The notes under the pieces: generated by a model
What the model saw: only the letters and a program-made list of their open reading frames with translations
What the model was told of the DNA's origin: nothing
The model's database searches: none
NCBI GenBank assembly: GCA_945888375.1
Contig: CAMCZZ010000001.1
Coordinates: 248,001 to 312,000 of the forward strand
Direction of reading: 5' to 3'
DNA: 64,000 nucleotides
DNA from: Akkermansia muciniphila
GTDB lineage: Bacteria > Verrucomicrobiota > Verrucomicrobiia > Opitutales > Opitutaceae
Part shown: positions 116-55,634 of the stretch, piece after piece
Numbering within the stretch: position 1 is the first letter of the stretch
Layout: every line of letters begins with the position of its first letter
Made by a program: the position numbers and the translations under genes

Positions 116-589
116 TTACTCTCCGTGGAGATGGCGAATGCACTCGCGGATGGCAGGCAAGAGGGGCGGTAGACATTCGCCGATGGCGCGGGGGTTGCCG
201 GGGAGGTTAATCAAGAGTGTTTGTCCGCGGGTGCCGGCGGTGGCGCGGGACAGGATGGCGGTGGGCACGAGCGGAAAGCTGCTGGCGCGCATGATCTCGC
301 CGAAGCCGGGCAACTCGCGCTCGAGCACGGCGCGAGTGGCTTCGGGGGTGAGGTCGCGGGGCGCGGGACCGGTGCCGCCGGTGGTGACCACAAGGTCGCA
401 GCGCTCGACGTCGCACAGCTCGATCAACAAAGCAGACAACGCGGCGCGGTCGTCCGGCAGGAGCCGTGCGAGGAAGGTGTGGCCGGGGCCGAGGTGCTCC
501 GCGAGGACACGCTCGATCTCGGGGCCGCTGCGGTCGGGGTAGACCCCGGCGCTGGCGCGGTCGCTGAGGGTGACGCGGGCGATCTTCAT
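116..589 (-). CDS. mog: Molybdopterin adenylyltransferase Mog
   Basis: A 157-residue protein of the MogA/MoaB family, which adenylates molybdopterin before molybdate insertion. The start MKIARVTLSDRASAG is the usual family N-terminus, followed by the pterin-binding TTGGTG motif near residue 70 and LPGNP near residue 128. The length fits stand-alone Mog (about 160-195 residues). MoaB is a close relative, but the neighbouring moeA (same pathway, next step) favours the adenylyltransferase role. It is transcribed with moaC upstream, separated by a 132-base gap that holds a large palindrome, and the MOSC gene follows 15 bases later. Confidence 0.88.
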   Translation of the reverse strand: MKIARVTLSDRASAGVYPDRSGPEIERVLAEHLGPGHTFLARLLPDDRAALSALLIELCDVERCDLVVTTGGTGPAPRDLTPEATRAVLERELPGFGEIMRASSFPLVPTAILSRATAGTRGQTLLINLPGNPRAIGECLPPLLPAIRECIRHLHGE

Positions 590-618
590 GGGTGAAAGCC
601 GGATATAACCACGGAGGG

Positions 619-707
619 TGGCCCACGAAACACACGAAAGGACACGAAAACCCAGCCAACCAATCCAAGGTTTTCCTTTCGTGTCATTTCGTGTGTTTCG
701 TGGGCCA
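619..707. repeat. Long imperfect palindrome of the CACGAAA type
   Basis: The arms at 619-652 and 669-707 are inverted copies: TGGCCCACGAAACACACGAA on the left matches the complement of the right arm almost base for base, with one mismatch and a 5-base indel near the loop. The element fills the mog-moaC gap, so in the operon mRNA it would fold into a very stable hairpin. There is no U-tract, so it is better read as a dispersed palindromic repeat than as a terminator. Confidence 0.8.
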
Positions 708-721
708 TCGGTTTGAATGGT

Positions 722-1180
722 TCAGGTCTTGGTTTTGGCGGTCACGTGCACCGCGCCGAGGACCATGGTTTTGTCCACCGCCTTCATCATGTCGTAAAGG
801 GTGAGGCCGGCGACGGTCACGGCGACGAGCGCCTCCATCTCGACGCCGGTGCGGGCGGTGGTGCGGGCGGTGGCGGTGATGACCACGCGGTCGGCGTGGA
901 CGTCAAAATCGACCGACACGGAATCGAGGGGCAGACCGTGGCAGAGCGGGATGAGTTCGTCGGTGCGTTTGGCGGCGAGGATGCCGGCGAGGCGGGCGGC
1001 GGCGAGGACGTCGCCCTTCGGCAGGGCCTGGGCGCGGAGCAAGTCGATGGTGGCGGGCTGGCAGACGAGTTCGCCGGTGGCGGTGGCAGCGCGGGCCTGA
1101 AGGGGCTTGTGGCCGACGTCGACCATGCGGGCGGCGCCGGTGGCGTCGAGGTGGCTGAAGGAGGGATCGGGGGCGGACAT
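722..1180 (-). CDS. moaC: Cyclic pyranopterin monophosphate synthase MoaC
   Basis: A 152-residue protein. Together with MoaA it converts GTP to cyclic pyranopterin monophosphate, the first stage of molybdenum cofactor synthesis. Family features are visible: SFSHLDATGAARMVDVG at the N-terminus, AKRTDELIPLCHGLPLDSV in the middle (the conserved LCHPL-type segment) and the GVEMEALVAVTVAGLTLYDM block near the C-terminus with the catalytic Lys in DMMKAVDK. The ATG at 1178-1180 was chosen because homology begins there; the open frame extends about 100 codons upstream, but that part is low-complexity shadow of moeA. It lies 25 bases after moeA on the same strand. Confidence 0.93.
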   Translation of the reverse strand: MSAPDPSFSHLDATGAARMVDVGHKPLQARAATATGELVCQPATIDLLRAQALPKGDVLAAARLAGILAAKRTDELIPLCHGLPLDSVSVDFDVHADRVVITATARTTARTGVEMEALVAVTVAGLTLYDMMKAVDKTMVLGAVHVTAKTKT

Positions 1181-1205
1181 TTTGTCGGCGGGGCGGGCGG
1201 GTGGG

Positions 1206-2375
1206 TTAAACGAGCAGGCCGTCGACGCTGAACTCCGGCGCGACGGCGGTCGGAACGCGCAGCAGGGCGTGGGTGCGGACGAGAGCGGTGAGGTCGCTGG
1301 AATCGACCCAAGGCAGGGGCGCGTAGCCCTCGGCCACGCGGGTGGCGGGCCACCAGGTCTCGCGCGGGTGCGGGCGCAGCGTCGCGCCGGGCGCGAGCGG
1401 GAGGCACAGCAGGGGGGCGGGCGCGGCGCCGGCGAGGCGGGCGAGCACGCGCGCGACGAAGAGGTGGAAACAAACAAAATGGGACAGCGGATTGCCGGGC
1501 AGGCCGAAGGCGATTTGCGCGCCGCGCACCCCGACGAGCAGGGGTTTGCCGGGACGGGAGGCGACTTGTTCGACCACGAGGGTGAAACCGTGCGCGACGA
1601 GCAGGCGGGCGGTGTGGTCGTGCGCGCCGCCGGAGGAGCCGCCGGACACGAGCAGGAGGTCGGGCGCGGCGTCGAGCAGGCCGGCGAAGGCGGCGGCGGT
1701 GGCCTCGTAACCTTCGCCGGCGCGGGCGTGGGCGACGAGTTCGGCGGAGGTCTGCGCCAGCAGGGCGGAAACGAGGGTGGAGTTGCTGTCGCGGATGCGA
1801 CCGGGTTGGCTGGGGGCTTCGGGGGCGATGAGTTCGCCGCCGGTCACAAGGTGGGCGACGCGCGCGCGGCGGGCGACCATCGGCGTGACGAGGCCGACGG
1901 AGGCGAGCAAGGCGAGCGCGCCGGCTTGGAGCGTGGCGCCGGGGGCGTGCAGGAGGTCACCCGCGCGGGCCTGGGAGGCACGGCGACGGATGAAAGCGGC
2001 GGACGGCGCGACGCGCAGAGTCACGGTGCCGGCGGCGGGGTCGGCGGTGGTGTCCTCGTGCATGACCAGGCCGACCGGGCCGGCGGGCACGGCGGAGCCA
2101 GTGAAGAGTCGCAGCACGGCGCCGGGGGGAGGAGCGTCGGGTGCGAGGTCGCCCATCGGAATGTCGCCGACGAGGCGCACGGTGCTGCCGGCGGGGAGGT
2201 CGAGCGCGGCGACGTAGCCGTCGATCGCGGCGCGGTCGAAGGGCGGCTGGTCCTCGGGGGCGGTCACGGGCTCGCGCAGCTCGCGGCCGGCGGCGGCGGC
2301 GAGCGGGACGCGCTCGGCCGGCAGGGGTGCGCCGAGGGTGTCGAGGCGTTCCCAGACGGCGGTGACGGAGAGCAT
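1206..2375 (-). CDS. moeA: Molybdopterin molybdenumtransferase MoeA
   Basis: A 389-residue protein that inserts molybdate into adenylated molybdopterin. Visible family motifs are QPPFDRAAIDGYVA (domain III, about residue 43; E. coli has PxFDNSAMDGYA), FTGSAVPAGPVGLVMHEDT (about residue 90), LVSGGSSGGAHDHTARLL (the MPT-binding subdomain) and AFGLPGNPLSHFVCFHLFV (the GLPGNPVS motif). The length is slightly below E. coli MoeA (411). It lies between moaE (23 bases upstream) and moaC (25 bases downstream), consistent with one transcript. Motif substitutions such as Gly for the usual Asp in the SGGSSGG region deserve checking, but overall assignment is firm. Confidence 0.92.
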   Translation of the reverse strand: MLSVTAVWERLDTLGAPLPAERVPLAAAAGRELREPVTAPEDQPPFDRAAIDGYVAALDLPAGSTVRLVGDIPMGDLAPDAPPPGAVLRLFTGSAVPAGPVGLVMHEDTTADPAAGTVTLRVAPSAAFIRRRASQARAGDLLHAPGATLQAGALALLASVGLVTPMVARRARVAHLVTGGELIAPEAPSQPGRIRDSNSTLVSALLAQTSAELVAHARAGEGYEATAAAFAGLLDAAPDLLLVSGGSSGGAHDHTARLLVAHGFTLVVEQVASRPGKPLLVGVRGAQIAFGLPGNPLSHFVCFHLFVARVLARLAGAAPAPLLCLPLAPGATLRPHPRETWWPATRVAEGYAPLPWVDSSDLTALVRTHALLRVPTAVAPEFSVDGLLV

Positions 2376-2398
2376 GGGTGGTTGGCGGCGCGGGCGGA

Positions 2399-2791
2399 TC
2401 AGGCCGCCGGCAGCGTGTTGGTTTTCCAGATGGGGACGTCTTTTTTTAAGAGGTCCATGAAGCCGGCGAGAAAGGCAAAGGCCTCGGCGCGGTGGCGGGC
2501 GGCGACGCCCAGGTAGATGGCGGCCTCGCCGACCGGCACGGGGCCGAGGCGGTGGACGATGTGGACGGCTTGCACGGGGTGATCGGCAGCGAGGGCGTCG
2601 GCGATGCGGGCGATCTCGCGCTCGGCCATGGGTTGGTAGGCTTCGTAGACGAGGCCGCCGATGGCGCGGTCGCCCTCGATGCCGCGCACCAGGCCACGGA
2701 ACTCGACGAAGGCGCCGGTCTCGGGGCCTGGGGCGGGCGCGGGCGGGGTGGCGGGGATGGGCTCGGGGGTGAGTTGGACGTGGAGGCGCAT
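2399..2791 (-). CDS. moaE: Molybdopterin synthase catalytic subunit MoaE
   Basis: A 130-residue protein, the large subunit of molybdopterin synthase, which transfers sulfur from MoaD thiocarboxylate to cyclic pyranopterin. GAFVEFRGLVRG near residue 27, LVYEAYQPMAEREI near residue 48, VHIVHRLGPVPVGEAAIYLGV and the C-terminal LLKKDVPIWK (containing the catalytic Lys pair) are all family landmarks. moaD ends 3 bases upstream of this start, so the two subunits are probably translationally coupled. Confidence 0.93.
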   Translation of the reverse strand: MRLHVQLTPEPIPATPPAPAPGPETGAFVEFRGLVRGIEGDRAIGGLVYEAYQPMAEREIARIADALAADHPVQAVHIVHRLGPVPVGEAAIYLGVAARHRAEAFAFLAGFMDLLKKDVPIWKTNTLPAA

Positions 2792-2794
2792 GGC

Positions 2795-3034
2795 TCAGCC
2801 GCCGGAGACGGGCGGGATCAGGGCGATTTCGTCGCCGGGTTGGAAAACGGTTTCGGCCGACGCGAACGCGCCATTGCGGGCGAGGCGGATGGCAGGGCGG
2901 AGCAGGGCAAGATCAGGATGGCGCTGCAGGACGTTTTGCCAGAGCTCGTCGGCGGTGAGCGGGGTTTCGGAGGGGATCGATTCTGAGGCGAGGGTGGTGA
3001 TACGACGGACCTGGGCGAAGTAGAGAAGGGTCAT
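2795..3034 (-). CDS. moaD: Molybdopterin synthase sulfur carrier subunit MoaD
   Basis: A 79-residue beta-grasp protein that ends in Ser-Gly-Gly; the C-terminal Gly-Gly is the point of thiocarboxylation in the MoaD/ThiS family. The opening MTLLYFAQVRRIT and the segment DEIALIPPVSGG match MoaD. It directly precedes moaE (3-base gap). A 220-base gap separates it from moaA upstream, long for this operon. Confidence 0.9.
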   Translation of the reverse strand: MTLLYFAQVRRITTLASESIPSETPLTADELWQNVLQRHPDLALLRPAIRLARNGAFASAETVFQPGDEIALIPPVSGG

Positions 3035-3254
3035 AAGCAGGTCGGTGATGATCGTAACCGGAGTATTGAGCGAGTTGTCGGTGCCGGCTGATTGATAAAG
3101 TGCTGTGCCGCTTTGCCAAGGGGCACGGAGCGGATTCGGACCTTAGTTTTAAAAACGAGTTTGGGGTCAGTCCATCTCCATCCTGCTTCGGGGCATTTAC
3201 GTGTCGCCGTTTTAATTCCCCCGTGCCTGAATTTGGGCAGCACCCTGGGGTGGG
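3035..3254. other. 220-base gap between moaA and moaD
   Basis: No gene, tRNA or convincing hairpin terminator is visible here. The composition is less GC-rich than the flanking genes and includes a short stretch reading TTAGTTTTAAAAACG. Short open frames across it are low-complexity or Arg-rich and do not look coding. It could hold an internal promoter for the moaD part of the cluster; I see no recognisable molybdenum cofactor riboswitch. Confidence 0.5.
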
Positions 3255-4223
3255 TTAGCCACCGATGGCAGTCATGGGGCGGGCGGGAAGGTAGTTGGCG
3301 TGGAATTCGTGGTCCTTGGGTTTTTGGGCGATGGCCTGGGCGATGGCCGCGTCGAGTCGGTCGGTGGCGAGGGCTTCGGCGAGATTGAGTTCGCCGTGGC
3401 GGCCGAGGCAGGGGCGGAGTTTGCCGTCGGCGGTGAGGCGGAGCTTGTTGCAGGAGGCGCAGAAATCCTGCTCGGACAGGGCGCCGATGAAGCCGATGCG
3501 GGCGCCGGGCAGGTCGGCGCATTCGTGGTAGCGGGCGGGGCCGTGGCCGGCGCGGTAGTCGGGCAGGGGGCGGAGCGGGCCGAGGTCGTTTTCGAGGACG
3601 GCGCGGGCGTCGGCGAGGGGGAGGAAATGGGCCGGCGTGAGCACGTCGGTGCGGGTCAGAGGCATCAGCTCGATGAAGCGGATGGGTAGGCGGCGGGCGG
3701 CAGCGAAGCGGACGAGGCCCGGGAGGGCGTGGTCGTTGACCCCGCGCATCAGCACGGTGTTGAGCTTCACGAACAGGCCGGCGGCGAGGGCGGCGTCGAT
3801 GCCGGCGAGGACCTGGGCGACGTCGCCGCCGGTGATGCGGCGGTAGGCGGCGGGGTCGAGGGCGTCGAGGGACACGTTGGCGGAGCGCACGCCGGCGGTA
3901 GCGAGGTCGGTGGCGAGGGGCGCGAGGCGGGTGCCGTTGGTGGAAAGGCCGAGGGAGTGGAGGTTTTCAAACGCGCCGATGCCGCGGGCGATTTCCACCA
4001 CGTCGTCGCGCAGGAGGGGTTCGCCGCCGGTGAGGCGGAACTTGGTGAAACCGAGGCGCGAGGCCGCGCGGGCGATGGCGACGAGCTGGGCGGCGCTGAG
4101 GTGGTCGGCGCGTTTCGCCCAGCCCTTGTAGCCCTCGGGCATGCAATAGAGGCAGCGCTCGTTGCACCGGTCGGTGACCGAGATGCGCAGGTAGTCGATG
4201 GAGCGGCCGAAGGGATCTAGCAC
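3255..4223 (-). CDS. moaA: GTP 3',8-cyclase MoaA (radical SAM)
   Basis: A 322-residue radical SAM enzyme that starts molybdenum cofactor synthesis from GTP. The N-terminal cluster motif is C20-x3-C24-x2-C27 in DRCNERCLYC. The C-terminal cluster is supplied by FCASCNKLRL and RPCLG, and the protein ends in the family's Gly-Gly (AIGG). The start is a GTG at 4221-4223, giving MLDPFGRSIDYLRISVT, exactly the family N-terminus; the open frame runs 80 codons further upstream but is not conserved-looking. The next upstream gene on this strand ends at 4312, so a promoter would lie in the 88-base gap. Confidence 0.93.
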   Translation of the reverse strand: MLDPFGRSIDYLRISVTDRCNERCLYCMPEGYKGWAKRADHLSAAQLVAIARAASRLGFTKFRLTGGEPLLRDDVVEIARGIGAFENLHSLGLSTNGTRLAPLATDLATAGVRSANVSLDALDPAAYRRITGGDVAQVLAGIDAALAAGLFVKLNTVLMRGVNDHALPGLVRFAAARRLPIRFIELMPLTRTDVLTPAHFLPLADARAVLENDLGPLRPLPDYRAGHGPARYHECADLPGARIGFIGALSEQDFCASCNKLRLTADGKLRPCLGRHGELNLAEALATDRLDAAIAQAIAQKPKDHEFHANYLPARPMTAIGG

Positions 4224-4311
4224 GGGGACAAGCTGAGCGGGGCCTGGGTTTGGGGCAAACCGGCAGGGTGATGGACTGAGAAAAAAGCGTGAGGCTGGGT
4301 GGCGGCCGGAA

Positions 4312-6081
4312 TCAGGGCGCGAGCGGGAGGCGGACACGCATGGTCGTGCCGCTGGGTCCGGTGGCGTGCAGGGTGATGTCGCCGTGGTGGGAGAGCAGGA
4401 TGCGTTTGGCGATGGCCAGGCCGAGGCCGGTGCCATCGGCGCGACCGGAAAGGAAGCTGTCAAAAATATGCGCAGCGAGTTCGGGCGGCACGCCGCGGCC
4501 GGTGTCGATCACGTCGAGCACGACGTGGCGGGCGCCGTCGTGCGGCTCGGTGCTGACGATCACGGTGATGGCGCCGCCCTGGTCCATCGCCTGGGTGGCG
4601 TTGAGCAGGAGATTGAGCAGCACCTGCTGGATCTGGCCTTTGTGCACGTCGACGGGCAGCGGCTTGGCGGGGGGCTCGAAGCGGAGGCGGATCTTGCTCT
4701 GGGCGAGCTTCAAGCGGATCAGCACAAGGGTGTCGCCGACCAGGTCGGCGATGTTCCAGCGCGAGTGCATGGACGACGGGGCCTTGGCGAACTGGAGCAC
4801 GCGGGAGACGATCGACTCCAGCTGGTCCAGCTTTTCGCCGATCACCCGCACGTCGGTGCGGCGGGGGTCGTCCTCCGGAAAATCAAGCCCGAGGTAACCG
4901 TAGAGGAGCTTGATCACGGTGAGGGGATTGCGGATCTCGTGGGCGATCTCGGCGGCGAGCAGGCCGAGGGTGGTCAGCTGCTCATTCTTGCGCAGGGTGT
5001 CCTCGCTCTGGAACACGCGGGAGTAGAGGCGGGAGTTTTGAAGGGTGACGGCGGCGAGGCTGGCGAAGGCGGCGAGCAGGCGTTTTTCGTCGTTGTTGAA
5101 TCGGTGGGTGTGATCAGTGAATACGGCGAGCACGCCGACGGCTTCATTTTCCCAGAACATCGGCACGGCGAGCAAGGAGCGGAGGGAGGGGTGGCGCGGG
5201 AGGTCGATGACGTCGAGGAACTCGGGGGACTGGACATTGGCGAACTCGATCGCGCGGCGGGTGTTCAGGGCGCCGGCGACCAGGCTGGTTTCGAGCGGGA
5301 GGTCTCCCTCTGGTGGCGGCGTATCAGGCAGTCCGGCAAGGGACACGGCGCGGAGGCAGCGTCTGGCCGGGTTGTATTCAAGGAGCAGGCACGCGCGGGC
5401 CGAAAGCAGGCTGCGGGCATCGCGGGAGATGGCGTCGTGCAGTTCCTGGCGCTCGAGCTTGGTGACGAGGGTGAGGCCCGCATTGACGAGGTTTTCGAGC
5501 TGGCCGGCTTTGCCCCTCAGGTGCTGGAGCTGCCAGAGCCGGAGCAGCACGGCGGTGCTCTCGGCGGCGAGGACGACGAGGTTTTGCAGGTGCTCGGGGC
5601 CGAAGCCGCCGAGGGTGTCGCTATCGAGGTTGATTACGCCGAGGATCTGGCCGTTGGCCGGGACGAGGGGCGCGGTGATCTCGGCGCGCACCTCCGGACG
5701 GACCGGAATGTAGCGGGGGTCGGCGCGGACGTCGGCGACCAACTGCGGGCGGCCATGGAAGGCGACCCAGCCCGTGATGCCTTGGCCGGGGCGGAGCACG
5801 ATCTCGTCGATGTCCGCCGGCATGCCTTGATGGACCTCAATCTCTAGGCGGCTGGTATCGGGGTTGAGCAGCGAGATGGAGCCGGACGAGGCGCCGAGGT
5901 GTTCGATGGCAAGGCGGAGGATCTCGATCATCGCGACGCGCGGGCTCTCGGCTGTGGTAGCAAGGCGGCTAACTGCGAGGAGCAGGGCGTGCCCGGAAGT
6001 GTGGGGGAGGGTCGGCGAGGAATCCACAAGGGGCAAGGTGGTCTCCGGCGGGTCCGGCGTAAAGCCTCCGGGCGGGCCCAA
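4312..6081 (-). CDS. Sensor histidine kinase with two GAF domains
   Basis: A 589-residue soluble two-component sensor. It has a first GAF domain at about 50-180, a second at about 200-350, then a HisKA domain with the phospho-acceptor His381 in EIAHEIRNPLTVI, an N box (LLLNATQAM, about 491-499), a G1 box DTGRG (526-530) and a G2 box GTGLGLAIAKR (550-560). No membrane segment is visible, so it probably senses a cytoplasmic ligand. The first 20-25 residues are Pro/Gly-rich; a TTG or GTG around 6028-6036 (TLPLVDSSP) is a plausible alternative start. No response regulator gene is adjacent. It lies 98 bases downstream of the EIIA-DAC gene on the same strand. Confidence 0.88.
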   Translation of the reverse strand: MGPPGGFTPDPPETTLPLVDSSPTLPHTSGHALLLAVSRLATTAESPRVAMIEILRLAIEHLGASSGSISLLNPDTSRLEIEVHQGMPADIDEIVLRPGQGITGWVAFHGRPQLVADVRADPRYIPVRPEVRAEITAPLVPANGQILGVINLDSDTLGGFGPEHLQNLVVLAAESTAVLLRLWQLQHLRGKAGQLENLVNAGLTLVTKLERQELHDAISRDARSLLSARACLLLEYNPARRCLRAVSLAGLPDTPPPEGDLPLETSLVAGALNTRRAIEFANVQSPEFLDVIDLPRHPSLRSLLAVPMFWENEAVGVLAVFTDHTHRFNNDEKRLLAAFASLAAVTLQNSRLYSRVFQSEDTLRKNEQLTTLGLLAAEIAHEIRNPLTVIKLLYGYLGLDFPEDDPRRTDVRVIGEKLDQLESIVSRVLQFAKAPSSMHSRWNIADLVGDTLVLIRLKLAQSKIRLRFEPPAKPLPVDVHKGQIQQVLLNLLLNATQAMDQGGAITVIVSTEPHDGARHVVLDVIDTGRGVPPELAAHIFDSFLSGRADGTGLGLAIAKRILLSHHGDITLHATGPSGTTMRVRLPLAP

Positions 6082-6179: not shown

Positions 6180-7547
6180 TCAGGCCGCGCCGGGGTTGAG
6201 CTTGCGCTCGGTGAGGGGGAGCATGACGCCGCGGCGGAAGAGGGTGACCTGGCCGGTGCTGGACGACACCACGATGCTTACGCAATCGGTGGCTACGGAC
6301 ACGGCGGCGGCGGCGGCGTGGCGGCTGCCCAGTCCACTGGGTAAAGCGTGGTCGGTGTCGGCAGCGAGCAGGAGGCTGCCGGCGCTCGAGACCACGCCGT
6401 CGCCCCGGATCACAAAGGCGCCGTCGATGGAGGAAAACTCCTTCACGGTCTCATCCATGAAGGGGTTGAGGATATTGCGATCCTCCTCCTTATAGCCGTA
6501 GAAAGGATTGAGAACGAGTGGCTTGGTAAGCTTCTCGACCCGAGTGGCGTCGCCAACGACGAAGAGGCAGCCGACGGGGCGGCCTTCGCGGCCCTCGACT
6601 CCCAGTTCCATGGCGATGCCGATCACCCGTTCCAGCACCTCGGGTTTCACGTCATCGGGCAGAAGGTCGGCGTGGCCGCCGAGCAGGGTCTGGAACTCAC
6701 GTTCTACATCGACGATTACGACCGTGTCGAATTGGTTGCTGCCGGCGAGTCCGCCGACGCAGCAGATGCGGTCGTTAAAGGCGATCACTCCGCGGGTCAG
6801 GGCGATGAGCATCGCGCTACGCAACTGGGCCATGCGCTGGGTGGAGAAGGAGCGCACTTGGATGACCTGCACGGCGCGGTCGGCGGCGGACTCATCGTCC
6901 AGCTCCACGTGGTTGCGGGTCACGAGGATGGTCTTGGTTTTGGGGAACCAGGCGCCGGGCTCGATGCCGCCCACGAACGTATCTCCGAACACCATGATGG
7001 CGCGGCACACGGCTCCGCGGGCGATGCGGTCGGCCTCGCGGATCATCAGGCGGTTGACGCGGTTTTGCTGGGCCTGGACGGGCCGGGCGAGGATGCCCCC
7101 GACGCCGGCTACGAGGCGGCTGTGGAGGGCGTTGAGATTGGGCGCGCCGACTAGGCTGGCGACGAGCTCAGGCTCCTTTACCAGTCGGGCGATGGTGGCG
7201 AGGACCTGCAGGTAATCGCGGGCGCGCTCGTCGGCCAGCAGGAGGAGCAGCAGGTGGGCGCGTTCATCGCCGAGGGAGCCGTCGTGCTGGACGCCTTCCC
7301 GGCTGCGGCCGACCACCAGCACGTAGCGCCGGGACATCTTTACGCGCACGTGGGGCAGGGCGACGCCGTTGCCCAGGTAGGTGGTCATCGTGCTCTCGCG
7401 CTGGAGCAGGCTCCGCAGGAGGGTTTCGCGCCGTAGATCGGAAAAACAGGAGGAGGCGTTTTCGAGCAGCTCGTTCAGGGCACCTTTCAGGTCGGTCGAT
7501 TTCAGCTCTACGAAGCGGCTGCGGGAGATGTGGCGTTCGAGGCGCAT
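6180..7547 (-). CDS. PTS EIIA domain fused to a diadenylate cyclase (DAC) domain
   Basis: A 455-residue protein with three parts. Residues 1-150 are a PtsN/fructose-type EIIA domain with the phosphorylatable histidine in GNGVALPHVRV (His66). Residues about 155-290 are a mixed alpha/beta region that looks like the accessory domain ahead of the DAC domain in archaeal-type DacZ enzymes (tentative). Residues about 325-445 are a DisA_N/DAC domain with DGAFVIR (DGA at 375-377) and GLGSRHAAAAAVSVATD followed by IVVSSSTGQVTLFRRG. Known DACs have RHR; here the second Arg is Ala (RHA, 409-411), so activity is likely but not certain. DAC enzymes make cyclic di-AMP from two ATP. The fusion suggests control by PTS phosphorylation. 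Confidence 0.85.
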   Translation of the reverse strand: MRLERHISRSRFVELKSTDLKGALNELLENASSCFSDLRRETLLRSLLQRESTMTTYLGNGVALPHVRVKMSRRYVLVVGRSREGVQHDGSLGDERAHLLLLLLADERARDYLQVLATIARLVKEPELVASLVGAPNLNALHSRLVAGVGGILARPVQAQQNRVNRLMIREADRIARGAVCRAIMVFGDTFVGGIEPGAWFPKTKTILVTRNHVELDDESAADRAVQVIQVRSFSTQRMAQLRSAMLIALTRGVIAFNDRICCVGGLAGSNQFDTVVIVDVEREFQTLLGGHADLLPDDVKPEVLERVIGIAMELGVEGREGRPVGCLFVVGDATRVEKLTKPLVLNPFYGYKEEDRNILNPFMDETVKEFSSIDGAFVIRGDGVVSSAGSLLLAADTDHALPSGLGSRHAAAAAVSVATDCVSIVVSSSTGQVTLFRRGVMLPLTERKLNPGAA

Positions 7548-7613: not shown

Positions 7614-7994
7614 TTATTTTTCCCACTCCAGCGCGCCTTTTTTGATCTCGTAGAAAAGGCCGAGGACGAGGACCCCAAAGAAAAAGCCGATGGGGGCGAG
7701 GATGGGGACGTTGTTGGCCAAGAAGTCGCGGTAGATCAGCGACCATGGAATCAGGAAAACGACTTCGATATCGAAGAGGATAAACAGCATCGCGGTGACG
7801 TAGAATTTCACCGAAAAGCGGGTGTGGACGATGCCCTCGGCCTTTACGCCGCATTCGTAGGCGGTGTCGGTGATGGCGGTCCGTTTGCGCGAGCGCTGGC
7901 CGAGTAGGTGGCTGACTCCGACGATGAGGCAGGCAAGGCCGGCGGCGAGGAGGAGCTGGATCAGGACTGGAGCGAAATCGGCGACGGTCGTCAT
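7614..7994 (-). CDS. nuoA: NADH-quinone oxidoreductase subunit A
   Basis: A 126-residue membrane protein of respiratory complex I. Three hydrophobic segments are visible (about 8-30, 64-88 and 96-116). The family signature YECGVKAEG (about 46-54), the segment RFSVKFYVTAMLFILFDIE and the acidic pair after it are all present. The ATG at 7992-7994 gives the expected length; the longer open frame upstream is low-complexity. No other nuo gene is in the window, so it stands alone, 66 bases upstream of the EIIA-DAC gene on the same strand. Other complex I genes must lie elsewhere. Confidence 0.92.
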   Translation of the reverse strand: MTTVADFAPVLIQLLLAAGLACLIVGVSHLLGQRSRKRTAITDTAYECGVKAEGIVHTRFSVKFYVTAMLFILFDIEVVFLIPWSLIYRDFLANNVPILAPIGFFFGVLVLGLFYEIKKGALEWEK

Positions 7995-52951: not shown

Positions 52952-53119
52952 TCAGTTTGTTCAGCCCGCCGGTTTTTGGGGGGCTTTCGGGGTATTTTCA
53001 GCTGCTCTGTTATTTCAGCGCACCGGCTGCACTCGGGGCTTGCCAATACCAGTCGCAGGCGGACTTTCACGTTCCCTTTTTTTCGCGAACTTTTTGGCAC
53101 GATTTTCCTCACGCCTGTC

Positions 53120-53584
53120 ATGGCCGGACTCCTCCGCAACCTCCTCGACCCCGCTTGCATCGTGCTATCGATGCAAGCCACCAAGCGCACGGCGGCTTTG
53201 AGCGAGGTGGCGCGCAGGCTGGACGGTCATCCCTCGGTCAGTAACTACGACGGCTTTTATCACGAATTACTTGCCCGCGACCGGTTGGACACCACCTGCC
53301 TGGGCAATGAGATCGCGCTGCCGCATGCGCGCACCGAGCATGTGGGAGAGCTGGTGCTTGCCATCGGGCGCAGCCGTGCCGGGGTGAGTTTTGAAAAGGA
53401 CAACCAGCTCGTCCGTTTGCTTTTCGTGTTGGGCACGCCCAAGAGCAATCCAATGGGCTATCTCCAGGTGGTTTCCACTCTGTGCAAAATCTTCAAGGAT
53501 CCGGCTAATCGAGAGGCCTTGTTGCAGGCGGATACCCCCGAGGCCTTTGTCGAGGCCCTCTTGGCGGCCGAGGGCAAGCTCTGA
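53120..53584 (+). CDS. PtsN-like PTS EIIA protein
   Basis: A 154-residue stand-alone EIIA of the nitrogen/fructose type. The phosphorylatable His lies in CLGNEIALPHARTEHVGE, and RLLFVLGTPKSNPMGYLQVVSTL is the other family segment. Such proteins are phosphorylated by NPr/HPr and regulate potassium transport and stress pathways. A second EIIA domain occurs fused to a DAC domain at 6180. No EIIB/EIIC or ptsI is adjacent. Confidence 0.87.
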   Translation: MAGLLRNLLDPACIVLSMQATKRTAALSEVARRLDGHPSVSNYDGFYHELLARDRLDTTCLGNEIALPHARTEHVGELVLAIGRSRAGVSFEKDNQLVRLLFVLGTPKSNPMGYLQVVSTLCKIFKDPANREALLQADTPEAFVEALLAAEGKL

Positions 53585-53665
53585 GCCCGCCGGCCGGGCC
53601 GCGTGTCTTTCGGCTTCCGCCCGCCGCCGTCCCGGGCCTAACTTCGTGCAACGCCCGAACGCCGC

Positions 53666-54634
53666 ATGATCCAATCCTTCATCCTCAGCGACGGTAAAAT
53701 CGTCGGCCGCGACCTCGAGCCGGAGGCCCTGCGGCTTGTGCATGGCGATAAGGGGCTCGTGCTCTGGGTAAATCTCTCCGATCCGACCCCCGAGGAGGCC
53801 AAGGCGGTGCTGGAGGGCGTGTTTCACTTTCACCCTCTGGCGATCGAGGACTGCATCGCGCCCAGTTCCCTCCCCAAGATTGAGGATTATGAAGACTACC
53901 TCTTCATCGTGATGCATGCGGTGGACTTCAACCGCACCGAGAAGTTTACCACCACCGAGCTCAACCTCTTCCTCGGCCGCGAAGCGCTCGTCACTTTTCA
54001 CCGGCAGCCGTTGAAATCGGTCGCGGCCGTGCTCGAGCGTTGCGCCAAGGCCACGGGCCTCGTCGCGCGCGGGCCCGATCGCCTTGCCCACCTCGTGCTC
54101 GACGCCTTGGTGGACAACTACAAACCCGTGACCGATGAGTTTCGTCGCGAGCTGGACGAGATCGAGGAGGATGTGCTGGAGGGCAAGGCGGCGGATCTCA
54201 CCGCCCGGCTGCTCGCGGTGCGTGCCGACCTGAATACCCTCCGCGCCGCCATCCGGCCCCAGCGCGAGGTCGCCGCCCGCCTCGCCCACGGCGAGACCAA
54301 AATCCTGCGGCCGCTCATGCTGCCCTATTTTCGCGATCTGCGGGACAATCTCGTGCGCATCGAAGAGACCGCCACCGCCCAGACCGACCAGTTGTTAATC
54401 TCCTTTGACCTGCATCTCAGCCGCTCCGACTTCGAGGCCAACCGCAGCATCAAGGCCCTGACCGCCCTTACCGCTGTTACTCTGCCGGCTACCCTCGTCA
54501 GCACTTGGTATGGCATGAACTTCGTCCACATGCCGGAGCTGGAGGGACCCTGGGCCTACCTGATTGTGGGTCTCATCACTCTGGCGCTCACCTACCTCAC
54601 CTACCGCTGGTGTCTGCGCAAGGGGTTGATCTGA
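53666..54634 (+). CDS. CorA-type magnesium/cobalt transporter, first copy
   Basis: A 322-residue CorA protein: a large N-terminal cytoplasmic domain and two C-terminal membrane helices, the first ended by the selectivity motif YGMNF (STWYGMNFVHMPELEGPWAY). LSDPTPEEAKAVLEG, HPLAIEDCIAPSSLPKIEDYEDYLF and FTTTELNLFLGREALVTFH are typical. It forms a pentameric channel for divalent cations. A closely related gene follows 22 bases later. Confidence 0.92.
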   Translation: MIQSFILSDGKIVGRDLEPEALRLVHGDKGLVLWVNLSDPTPEEAKAVLEGVFHFHPLAIEDCIAPSSLPKIEDYEDYLFIVMHAVDFNRTEKFTTTELNLFLGREALVTFHRQPLKSVAAVLERCAKATGLVARGPDRLAHLVLDALVDNYKPVTDEFRRELDEIEEDVLEGKAADLTARLLAVRADLNTLRAAIRPQREVAARLAHGETKILRPLMLPYFRDLRDNLVRIEETATAQTDQLLISFDLHLSRSDFEANRSIKALTALTAVTLPATLVSTWYGMNFVHMPELEGPWAYLIVGLITLALTYLTYRWCLRKGLI

Positions 54635-54656
54635 GCCGCGAGCTGTCCCGCCGACC

Positions 54657-55634
54657 ATGATCACCACCCTCGTTTTTCGCGAAGGCCGCCACCACGCGCA
54701 CAATCCTGCGTTGGAATTGCTTCCGGCGTTGCGGACCGAGCCGGGGGTCATGCTGTGGGTTGATCTGAGCGAGCCGACTCCGGAGGAGACGGCGGCGGTG
54801 CTGGAGCGGGCCTTCGCCGTGCACCCGGTGGTCATCGAGGACTGCACGACGGACTCTCCTCTACCCAAAATCGATGCTTTCGACGACTACCTGCACCTCG
54901 TGGTCCACGCGGTTGATTACTCGAAGACGGACAAGTTCACCACCACCGACCTGGATCTGATCCTAGGAAAAAACTTCCTCGTCACGTTTCACCGCCAACC
55001 CCTGCGCATCGTGCAACAAGTGCTGGAGCGGCACGGCCGATCCGGGCACGCGGTGCAACCGGTGCGCGGGCCGGACCGGATCGCCCACACCCTGCTCGAC
55101 CAGTTGGTCGAGGCCTACAAGCCGGCGCTGGAGGAGCTGCGTGCCGACCTGGAATCCATCGAGGAGGCGGTGCTTGGCGAGGCCGAGCCGCACGAGCTCT
55201 TTCCGCAAGTGACGGCGCTGCGCAAGGACCTCGCGACCCTGCGCCAGATCGTGCGGCCGCAGCGGGCGGTGGCGGCGGAGCTGGCCCAGGGCAAGCCGGG
55301 GTTTATCCGGCCGGTCATCCTGCCCTATCTGCGCGATTTGGCGGAAGACTTCGCACGCATCGAGAGCCAGGCCTCGGTGTGGGGAGACCAGTTGATCCTC
55401 ACCTTCCGGCTCTACCTGAAGCGCTCCACCCACGAGACCAACGAGGGCATCAAAATGCTCACCGGCCTGACTGCCCTGACCATGCCGCCCATCCTGGTTG
55501 GCAGCTGGTTCGGCATGAATTTCCGCGCCATGCCCGAGCTCGCGCCGGCTTGGGCCTACCCTGTGGCGGCGGTCGGCACCTTCGGCTTCACCGCCGCGCT
55601 GTTTTTTTATCTGCGCCGCAAGCGGTGGCTGTGA
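54657..55634 (+). CDS. CorA-type magnesium/cobalt transporter, second copy
   Basis: A 325-residue protein collinear with the first copy (LSEPTPEETAAVLERAF, HPVVIEDCTTDSPLPKIDAF, KFTTTDLDLILGKNFLVTFH) but with FGMNF instead of YGMNF and a distinct tail (FYLRRKRWL). The pair is a tandem duplication that has diverged. The FGMNF variant is found in other CorA members, so it should still be a channel; ion preference may differ. Confidence 0.9.
   Translation: MITTLVFREGRHHAHNPALELLPALRTEPGVMLWVDLSEPTPEETAAVLERAFAVHPVVIEDCTTDSPLPKIDAFDDYLHLVVHAVDYSKTDKFTTTDLDLILGKNFLVTFHRQPLRIVQQVLERHGRSGHAVQPVRGPDRIAHTLLDQLVEAYKPALEELRADLESIEEAVLGEAEPHELFPQVTALRKDLATLRQIVRPQRAVAAELAQGKPGFIRPVILPYLRDLAEDFARIESQASVWGDQLILTFRLYLKRSTHETNEGIKMLTGLTALTMPPILVGSWFGMNFRAMPELAPAWAYPVAAVGTFGFTAALFFYLRRKRWL

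Follow-up and report, generated by a model that had tools for sequence, protein, structure and literature searches.

A predicted diadenylate cyclase joined to a PTS EIIA domain in Opitutales, and its possible control by phosphorylation

Does the phosphotransferase system (PTS) reach the synthesis of c-di-AMP through a single protein? The question is raised by one gene on the minus strand of the window, that is, the whole 64,000-nucleotide stretch of Akkermansia muciniphila DNA that was analysed, in which an earlier note had read a PTS EIIA domain, with His66 of a GVALPH motif as its phosphorylation site, fused to a diadenylate cyclase (DAC) with DGA and GSRH motifs within residues 375-413. The codons for His66 and for the cyclase motifs are present as described, and a domain search places the EIIA and the DAC each above its Pfam cut-off in one and the same protein. 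The two-part description falls short, however, because a third domain, DacZ_P, lies between the other two and had been missed. The gene and its parts are laid out as follows.

6180..7547, minus strand: EIIA-DacZ_P-DAC fusion, whole gene, ATG start, uninterrupted, 455 aa
7098..7547, minus strand: PTS EIIA type-2 (EIIA-Ntr-like) domain, residues 1-150, limits approximate (Pfam PF00359, Foldseek)
6687..7064, minus strand: DacZ_P domain, residues 162-287, pyruvate-kinase C-terminal fold (Pfam PF21755, VIA-align)
6225..6602, minus strand: DAC (diadenylate cyclase) domain, residues 316-441 (Pfam PF02457, VIA-align)
7352-7350, minus strand: His66, predicted phosphorylation site, in GVALPH (codon read from the DNA)
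6425-6417, minus strand: DGA motif, D375-G376-A377 (codons read from the DNA)
6329-6315, minus strand: GSRHA, G407-S-R-H-A411, equivalent of the RHR motif (codons read from the DNA)

When the 455-residue frame was run against Pfam, three families matched at E <=1, all above their curated cut-offs: PTS_EIIA_2 (PF00359, residues 40-143, 63.2 bits against a cut-off of 27), DacZ_P (PF21755, residues 162-287, 91.6 bits against 27.4) and DAC (PF02457, residues 316-441, 73.8 bits against 27). The top NCBIfam match of the fusion is the DacZ model NF041371, at 125.3 bits against an equivalog cut-off of 430, and the next matches, to fructose-type and nitrogen-type EIIA and to other cyclase models, all fall below their cut-offs, as does the PtsN equivalog TIGR01419 (45.6 bits, below 138.7). 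Judged by these profiles, the EIIA part is a PtsN-like domain, not PtsN, and the fusion is a relative of haloarchaeal DacZ, not DacZ itself. Membership of PTS_EIIA_2 is indicated by a domain above the Pfam cut-off together with a phosphorylatable His in the loop, and membership of the DacZ/CdaZ branch by a DacZ_P domain, of PK_C fold, adjoining the DAC; by its sequence the fusion is a member of that branch.

Structure models are consistent with this division of the chain. The full-length AlphaFold model, built from 24 sequences, is weak (pLDDT 64.9, pTM 0.40), so that domain-domain contacts are unreadable from it, with the EIIA part mostly at 70-90. Foldseek matched that part to PtsN/EIIA-Ntr 3urr (E 1.2e-7, TM 0.78 by target) and also placed top matches of the full-length model on DisA and CdaA. 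A second model, of residues 158-455 (48 sequences), is better, at pLDDT 77.9 and pTM 0.64; VIA-align matched its first 125 residues to the pyruvate kinase PKM2 4qg9 (Z 13.3, rmsd 2.5, 110 residues) and the remainder to DisA 9y4s (Z 15.9, rmsd 2.4, 129 residues), with 2fb5 as the best diadenylate-cyclase row for the DAC part (Z 16.1). Residues 155-290, for which the earlier note had proposed a structure prediction, are thus a known fold, because VIA-align matches them to the pyruvate kinase C-terminal domain. A phmmer search with the DacZ_P segment alone gave kelch-type chance matches only, and the link to pyruvate kinase therefore rests on the Pfam domain and the fold. Braun et al. 2019 state that archaeal DacZ and CdaZ share the PK_C fold, which was first found binding fructose-1,6-bisphosphate, in pyruvate kinase (PMC6741144).

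The nearest known systems each resemble one portion of the protein. DacZ and DacY-CdaZ, of which Haloferax volcanii DacZ and Methanocaldococcus jannaschii CdaZ are examples, likewise consist of DacZ_P/PK_C followed by DAC, and the fusion differs from them in its additional N-terminal EIIA domain. PtsN (EIIA-Ntr) has the fold and the phosphorylation loop in common with the EIIA of the fusion, whereas in the fusion that domain is joined to a cyclase and carries Tyr112 where solved PtsN proteins have a His, which we take to be their second active-site histidine. This residue is Tyr in 61/65 aligned fusions, and the other PtsN-like protein of the same genome likewise has Tyr at the equivalent position. 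CdaA and DisA share the DAC fold and the DGA and RH motifs; in contrast to them, the fusion has DacZ_P and EIIA, and its RHR motif ends in Ala instead of Arg. The extra domain of CdaA is described as transmembrane (PMC6741144) and that of DisA as DNA-binding (PMC5575661).

The architecture recurs well beyond this genome. Some match was found in 37 of 38 near genomes and a near-full-length match in 35, the others being G007 (EIIA match only), G029 (none) and G035 (two contig-end pieces). In G035 the EIIA match stops 85 bp short of a contig end, with nuoA upstream, and the DAC half opens another contig; a real split of the gene was considered, and an assembly break is the best reading. In a draw of 288 genomes from the phylum, 41 of 43 same-order genomes had a near-full-length match, which rules out an artefact or a frameshift as the origin of the fusion. 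Outside the order, at least 4 of the 245 genomes drawn (G277, G040, G070 and G189) had near-full-length matches, at 31-35% identity, a lower bound because in many genomes five candidates were scored per genome. The deep branches of the tree are long and unsure, so that one and two origins of the fusion are indistinguishable.

A search for DAC domains in 75 genomes found one in 57/59 order genomes, every time including the fusion. Exactly one DAC was present in 55 of these genomes, two in G253 and G202, and zero in G133 (99% complete, 8 contigs) and G176 (98%, about 150 contigs). The DAC of the fusion sits in a frame of at least 444 residues in all DAC-bearing order genomes except G035. Nine genomes from other orders of the class each had a DAC of 125-130 bits, in frames of 259-359 aa that we take to be CdaA-type, and one of the nine, G113, had a second DAC in a 523-aa frame. 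In the named collection, the best 80 of at least 500 relatives have matches that start at residues 1-3, end at residues 448-455 and show 67-97% identity, and their titles name 79 Verrucomicrobiota taxa and one merely 'bacterium', genus-only titles having been assigned to taxa from recall. Among the matches listed, the two highest identities (97%) belong to an 'Opitutaceae bacterium' and to the entry titled 'bacterium'. From these sequence comparisons, the EIIA-DacZ_P-DAC fusion is an old arrangement of its order and the standing DAC there.

Two partial relatives were observed in passing. The second DacZ-type cyclase frame of G202 has no EIIA (L064:6738-9024), and a gene for a DUF2254 membrane protein lies directly downstream of it. 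At a contig start, L063:2-832 is a DacZ_P-DAC half, either an odd fusion or a chimeric assembly, and the stretch before it presumably resembles a GroEL apical domain.

The earlier note had also held that no described protein joins EIIA and DAC, and this is doubtful. DacD is a DAC class named by Braun et al. 2019 within a scheme from Corrigan and Gruendling 2013, and the representatives printed there are proteins of Lacunisphaera limnophila, Puniceicoccaceae, Coraliomargarita, Verrucomicrobia and Opitutae (PMC6741144). Lacunisphaera, Puniceicoccaceae and Coraliomargarita are Verrucomicrobiota of the class Opitutia in the NCBI taxonomy. Because all five DacD representatives bear Verrucomicrobiota names, and because the standing DAC of the order is the fusion, the fusion most likely belongs to DacD, an assignment by taxonomy and by one DAC per genome, not by sequences. 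Corrigan and Gruendling 2013 reportedly draws such an architecture, and Galperin 2023 is said perhaps to do so as well. Among the matches listed in the open-licence literature, none was a functional study of a protein that joins EIIA to DAC; the fusion is most likely a member of a DacD-type class for which that literature yielded no characterisation.

Whether the cyclase half is active was approached through residue conservation. The 72 near-full-length fusions of the near-genome set and the phylum draw, G035 not among them, supplied 65 aligned sequences, 61 from Opitutales and 4 from other classes. Outside the alignment are the order fusions of G036, G074, G083, G139, G188, G234 and G240, the cyclase-half proteins L059, L063 and L064, and L069, L073, L075, L076 and L077, which are second copies of included loci. 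D375, G376, G405, G407, R409, H410 and A412 are invariant in 65/65 aligned fusions, and A377 is present in 61/65. Residue 411, where the earlier note had correctly seen that Ala replaces the usual second Arg of RHR, is Ala in 56, Ser in 4, Thr in 3, Val in 1 and Arg in 1, and since Ala is the rule and Arg occurs once, Ala411 is a group character, not local decay. A closer set of 80 named loci and the query is identical at residues 66, 375-377, 405, 407 and 409-412 in 81/81. Compared with the query, the sequences have a median identity of 0.59 in EIIA, 0.62 in DacZ_P and 0.81 in DAC.

RHR is given as the usual diadenylate-cyclase motif (PMC5575661), and the RHA of the fusion could accordingly be read as the mark of a catalytically dead DAC domain. 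This reading is very improbable: the motif residues D, G, R and H do not vary, the fusion is the sole DAC found in 55 order genomes, and Haloferax volcanii DacZ, which belongs to this branch, produces c-di-AMP (PMC6741144), a likeness at the level of the branch. The means of removing the product bear on the same point. A phosphodiesterase, PgpH, has been described (PMC5575661). The 7TM-7TMR_HD domain was found in 51/59 order genomes, among them the present one, in which no DAC other than the fusion was found. We take 7TM-7TMR_HD to be the domain of this c-di-AMP phosphodiesterase. G133, in which no DAC was found, also gave no 7TMR_HD match, as would suit an active cyclase; on the side of a dead domain, G176 lacks a DAC yet does match 7TMR_HD, and in seven fusion-bearing order genomes 7TMR_HD was unmatched, so DAC and 7TMR_HD are not strictly found together. 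Potassium is reported to be under c-di-AMP control in many bacteria (PMC7900238). No c-di-AMP riboswitch was found in this genome; TrkA_C has 4 matches there, in 2 frames. The earlier note had named the lack of a DAC match, or of the motif in homologues, as what would undo its proposal, and both match and motif are in place. The fusion very probably catalyses the synthesis of c-di-AMP, to judge from its domain and its invariant residues.

A phosphate for His66 would have to come from a relay. The genome, of 3.22 Mb and 99.5% complete, has one HPr match, one EI with three PEP-utiliser domains and no further domain in the frame, and two EIIA_2 proteins, one of them the fusion. The other lies in the window and is a candidate competing phospho-acceptor.

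52976..53584, plus strand: other EIIA_2 protein, PtsN-like (Pfam 97.2 bits)

Two tandem genes for CorA-type transporters come after this gene (window 52976-55634, plus strand). Of the EIIA and EIIC families, PF00359 and PF02378 were those searched, and PTS_EIIC had no match in this genome nor in 28/30 order genomes, being present in G202 and G020. Because EI, HPr and two EIIA_2 proteins are present and PTS_EIIC is unmatched, the PTS of this genome looks regulatory, with the fusion as one of its two visible end points. Across 64 genomes (59 of the order and 5 others), EI was found in 62 and HPr in 61. EI was not found in G035 nor HPr in G032, both of which have the fusion, and the genomes with a missing EI or HPr are drafts, 93-95% complete.

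His66 is present in 62/65 aligned fusions and is replaced by Ser in L065 (G205) and L066 (G179) and by Tyr in L072 (G027). The loci L065:5479-6849, L066:5997-7370 and L072:6524-7882 are useful as natural controls. Among the best-kept EIIA positions are P65, H66, R68, R50 and E51, which form the phosphorylation loop and its surroundings, and other well-kept positions (R11, E26, G80, L113 and L116) look structural. Co-variation of His66 with EI and HPr was sought and not seen: G205, G179 and G027 have EI, HPr and DAC and no His66, and the opposite holds for G030 (L070, 0.9 Mb), in which neither EI nor HPr was found and His66 is kept.

These exceptions are what would be expected if the EIIA served only for interaction or structure, tying the cyclase to a partner and carrying no regulatory phosphate, with DacZ_P as the true sensor. 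The three fusions that lost His66 kept the cyclase, the EIIA of L065 has slipped below the Pfam cut-off (26.1 against 27), G030 has the fusion without a detected relay, and EIIA is less conserved than DAC. A scaffold, however, would not need His66 and its loop, which are retained in all but those three fusions, His66 without exception in the closer relatives. EI and HPr are also present almost throughout, although PTS_EIIC is so rarely matched. A tether of this kind is therefore unlikely. Given the loop and the relay, HPr probably phosphorylates His66.

The neighbourhood of the gene points in no such direction, as the conserved neighbour of the fusion over 97 loci is nuoA and no pts gene.

7614..7994, minus strand: nuoA (NADH-quinone oxidoreductase subunit A), next gene upstream, separated by 66 bp, ATG read
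4312..6081, minus strand: GAF-GAF histidine kinase, downstream neighbour (Pfam)

The nuoA product matches Pfam Oxidored_q4 at 97.6 bits on a longer frame. A NuoA match lies directly upstream and on the same strand in 87/97 loci, at a distance of 10-158 bp as measured between tblastn ends, and further upstream dnaG is matched in 68/97 and rpoD in 62/97; the 97 loci are not independent, and some possibly represent the same genome from two collections. Of the loci with no NuoA, L058, L060, L061 and L062 come from other classes, and L106, L137 and L152 start only 92-159 bp ahead of the match, which leaves L068, L070 and L072 as real exceptions. The linkage may be an order-wide synteny. An operon with the downstream histidine kinase was considered and is not conserved, the arrangement being shared by 1/97 loci (L079), and the kinase is probably unrelated to the fusion. 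A promoter and terminator scan at the locus was uninformative. Molybdenum cofactor genes lie in window 116-4463 on the minus strand, with MoaC and a radical SAM/Mob_synth_C protein (MoaA) named by Pfam and MogA, MoeA and MoaE by eye. At the L058 locus, which belongs to another class, the gene that follows downstream of the fusion (L058:3713-5578, minus strand) encodes an amino-acid permease with a C-terminal PTS_EIIA_2.

Control could also run the other way: DAC/DacZ_P, with ATP or c-di-AMP bound, would gate the EIIA, and the EIIA would be the output, regulating the transport of ions or solutes in the manner of PtsN. The permease beside the fusion in L058 fits such a role, as do published links of both partners to potassium: PtsN directly binds a K+/H+ antiporter, which its unphosphorylated form inhibits (YcgO; PMC11808508), a 2026 review treats potassium control as a main theme of the nitrogen PTS (PMC13104625), and c-di-AMP acts on potassium as noted above (PMC7900238). 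The main text of that review contains neither 'c-di-AMP' nor 'diadenylate' (PMC13104625). Such a reversal is nonetheless improbable, if less so than a dead cyclase, as a PtsN-like protein is encoded separately in the genome and the DAC is the best-conserved domain, its motif residues invariant, which is what selection for catalysis as the output would lead one to expect.

The best explanation as a whole is, on balance, a DacD-type cyclase whose activity would be controlled by phosphorylation of its EIIA domain. In outline, EI would draw phosphate from phosphoenolpyruvate and HPr would hand it to His66 of EIIA, whose phosphorylation state would alter the packing of EIIA on DacZ_P and DAC; the altered packing would in turn change the face-to-face pairing of DAC domains that would turn two ATP into c-di-AMP, and a PgpH-type phosphodiesterase would remove the product. 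A second signal from metabolism would probably enter through DacZ_P, our guess being a ligand such as fructose bisphosphate or a nucleotide. The evidence for this explanation consists of the three Pfam domains, the structure matches, the order-wide retention, the invariant motifs, the kept His66 loop, the EI, HPr and two EIIA_2 proteins found with no PTS_EIIC match, the 7TMR_HD of 51/59 order genomes and the EIIA_2-bearing permease of L058, and the evidence against it of the loss of His66 in 3/65 fusions, the relay-less G030, the gaps in the relay of G035 and G032, Tyr112, the nuoA neighbour, the missing riboswitch, the seven fusion genomes with no 7TMR_HD match and the weak full-length model. 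The single step by which His66 phosphorylation would control the cyclase could go either way on the sequences compared here. The direction of that control is more doubtful still: that unphosphorylated EIIA restrains the cyclase is a guess by analogy, made because unphosphorylated PtsN binds and inhibits YcgO.

How the synthesis of c-di-AMP is controlled is a question of current interest, and here the sole cyclase found carries candidate regulators in its own chain, one of which, the EIIA, offers a defined and testable phosphorylation site. Because no PTS_EIIC match was found in this genome or in most of the order genomes searched, a role for EI and HPr is to be sought among few acceptors, which in this genome are the two EIIA_2 proteins. 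It is conceivable, and we put it forward tentatively from the domain content, that a transporter-less regulatory PTS is wired directly to c-di-AMP, His66 and DacZ_P together making the cyclase a sensor of the PEP node. We know of no earlier c-di-AMP cyclase under the control of PTS phosphorylation, and if the proposal is true this would be the first. Two separate systems of potassium control, PtsN and c-di-AMP, would then be united in one polypeptide, and carbon and energy status (PEP, pyruvate) would be joined to an osmotic messenger, which would suggest a reason for keeping a PTS that does not transport. Central metabolism may set the level of c-di-AMP through the EIIA and pyruvate-kinase-like domains of the fusion.
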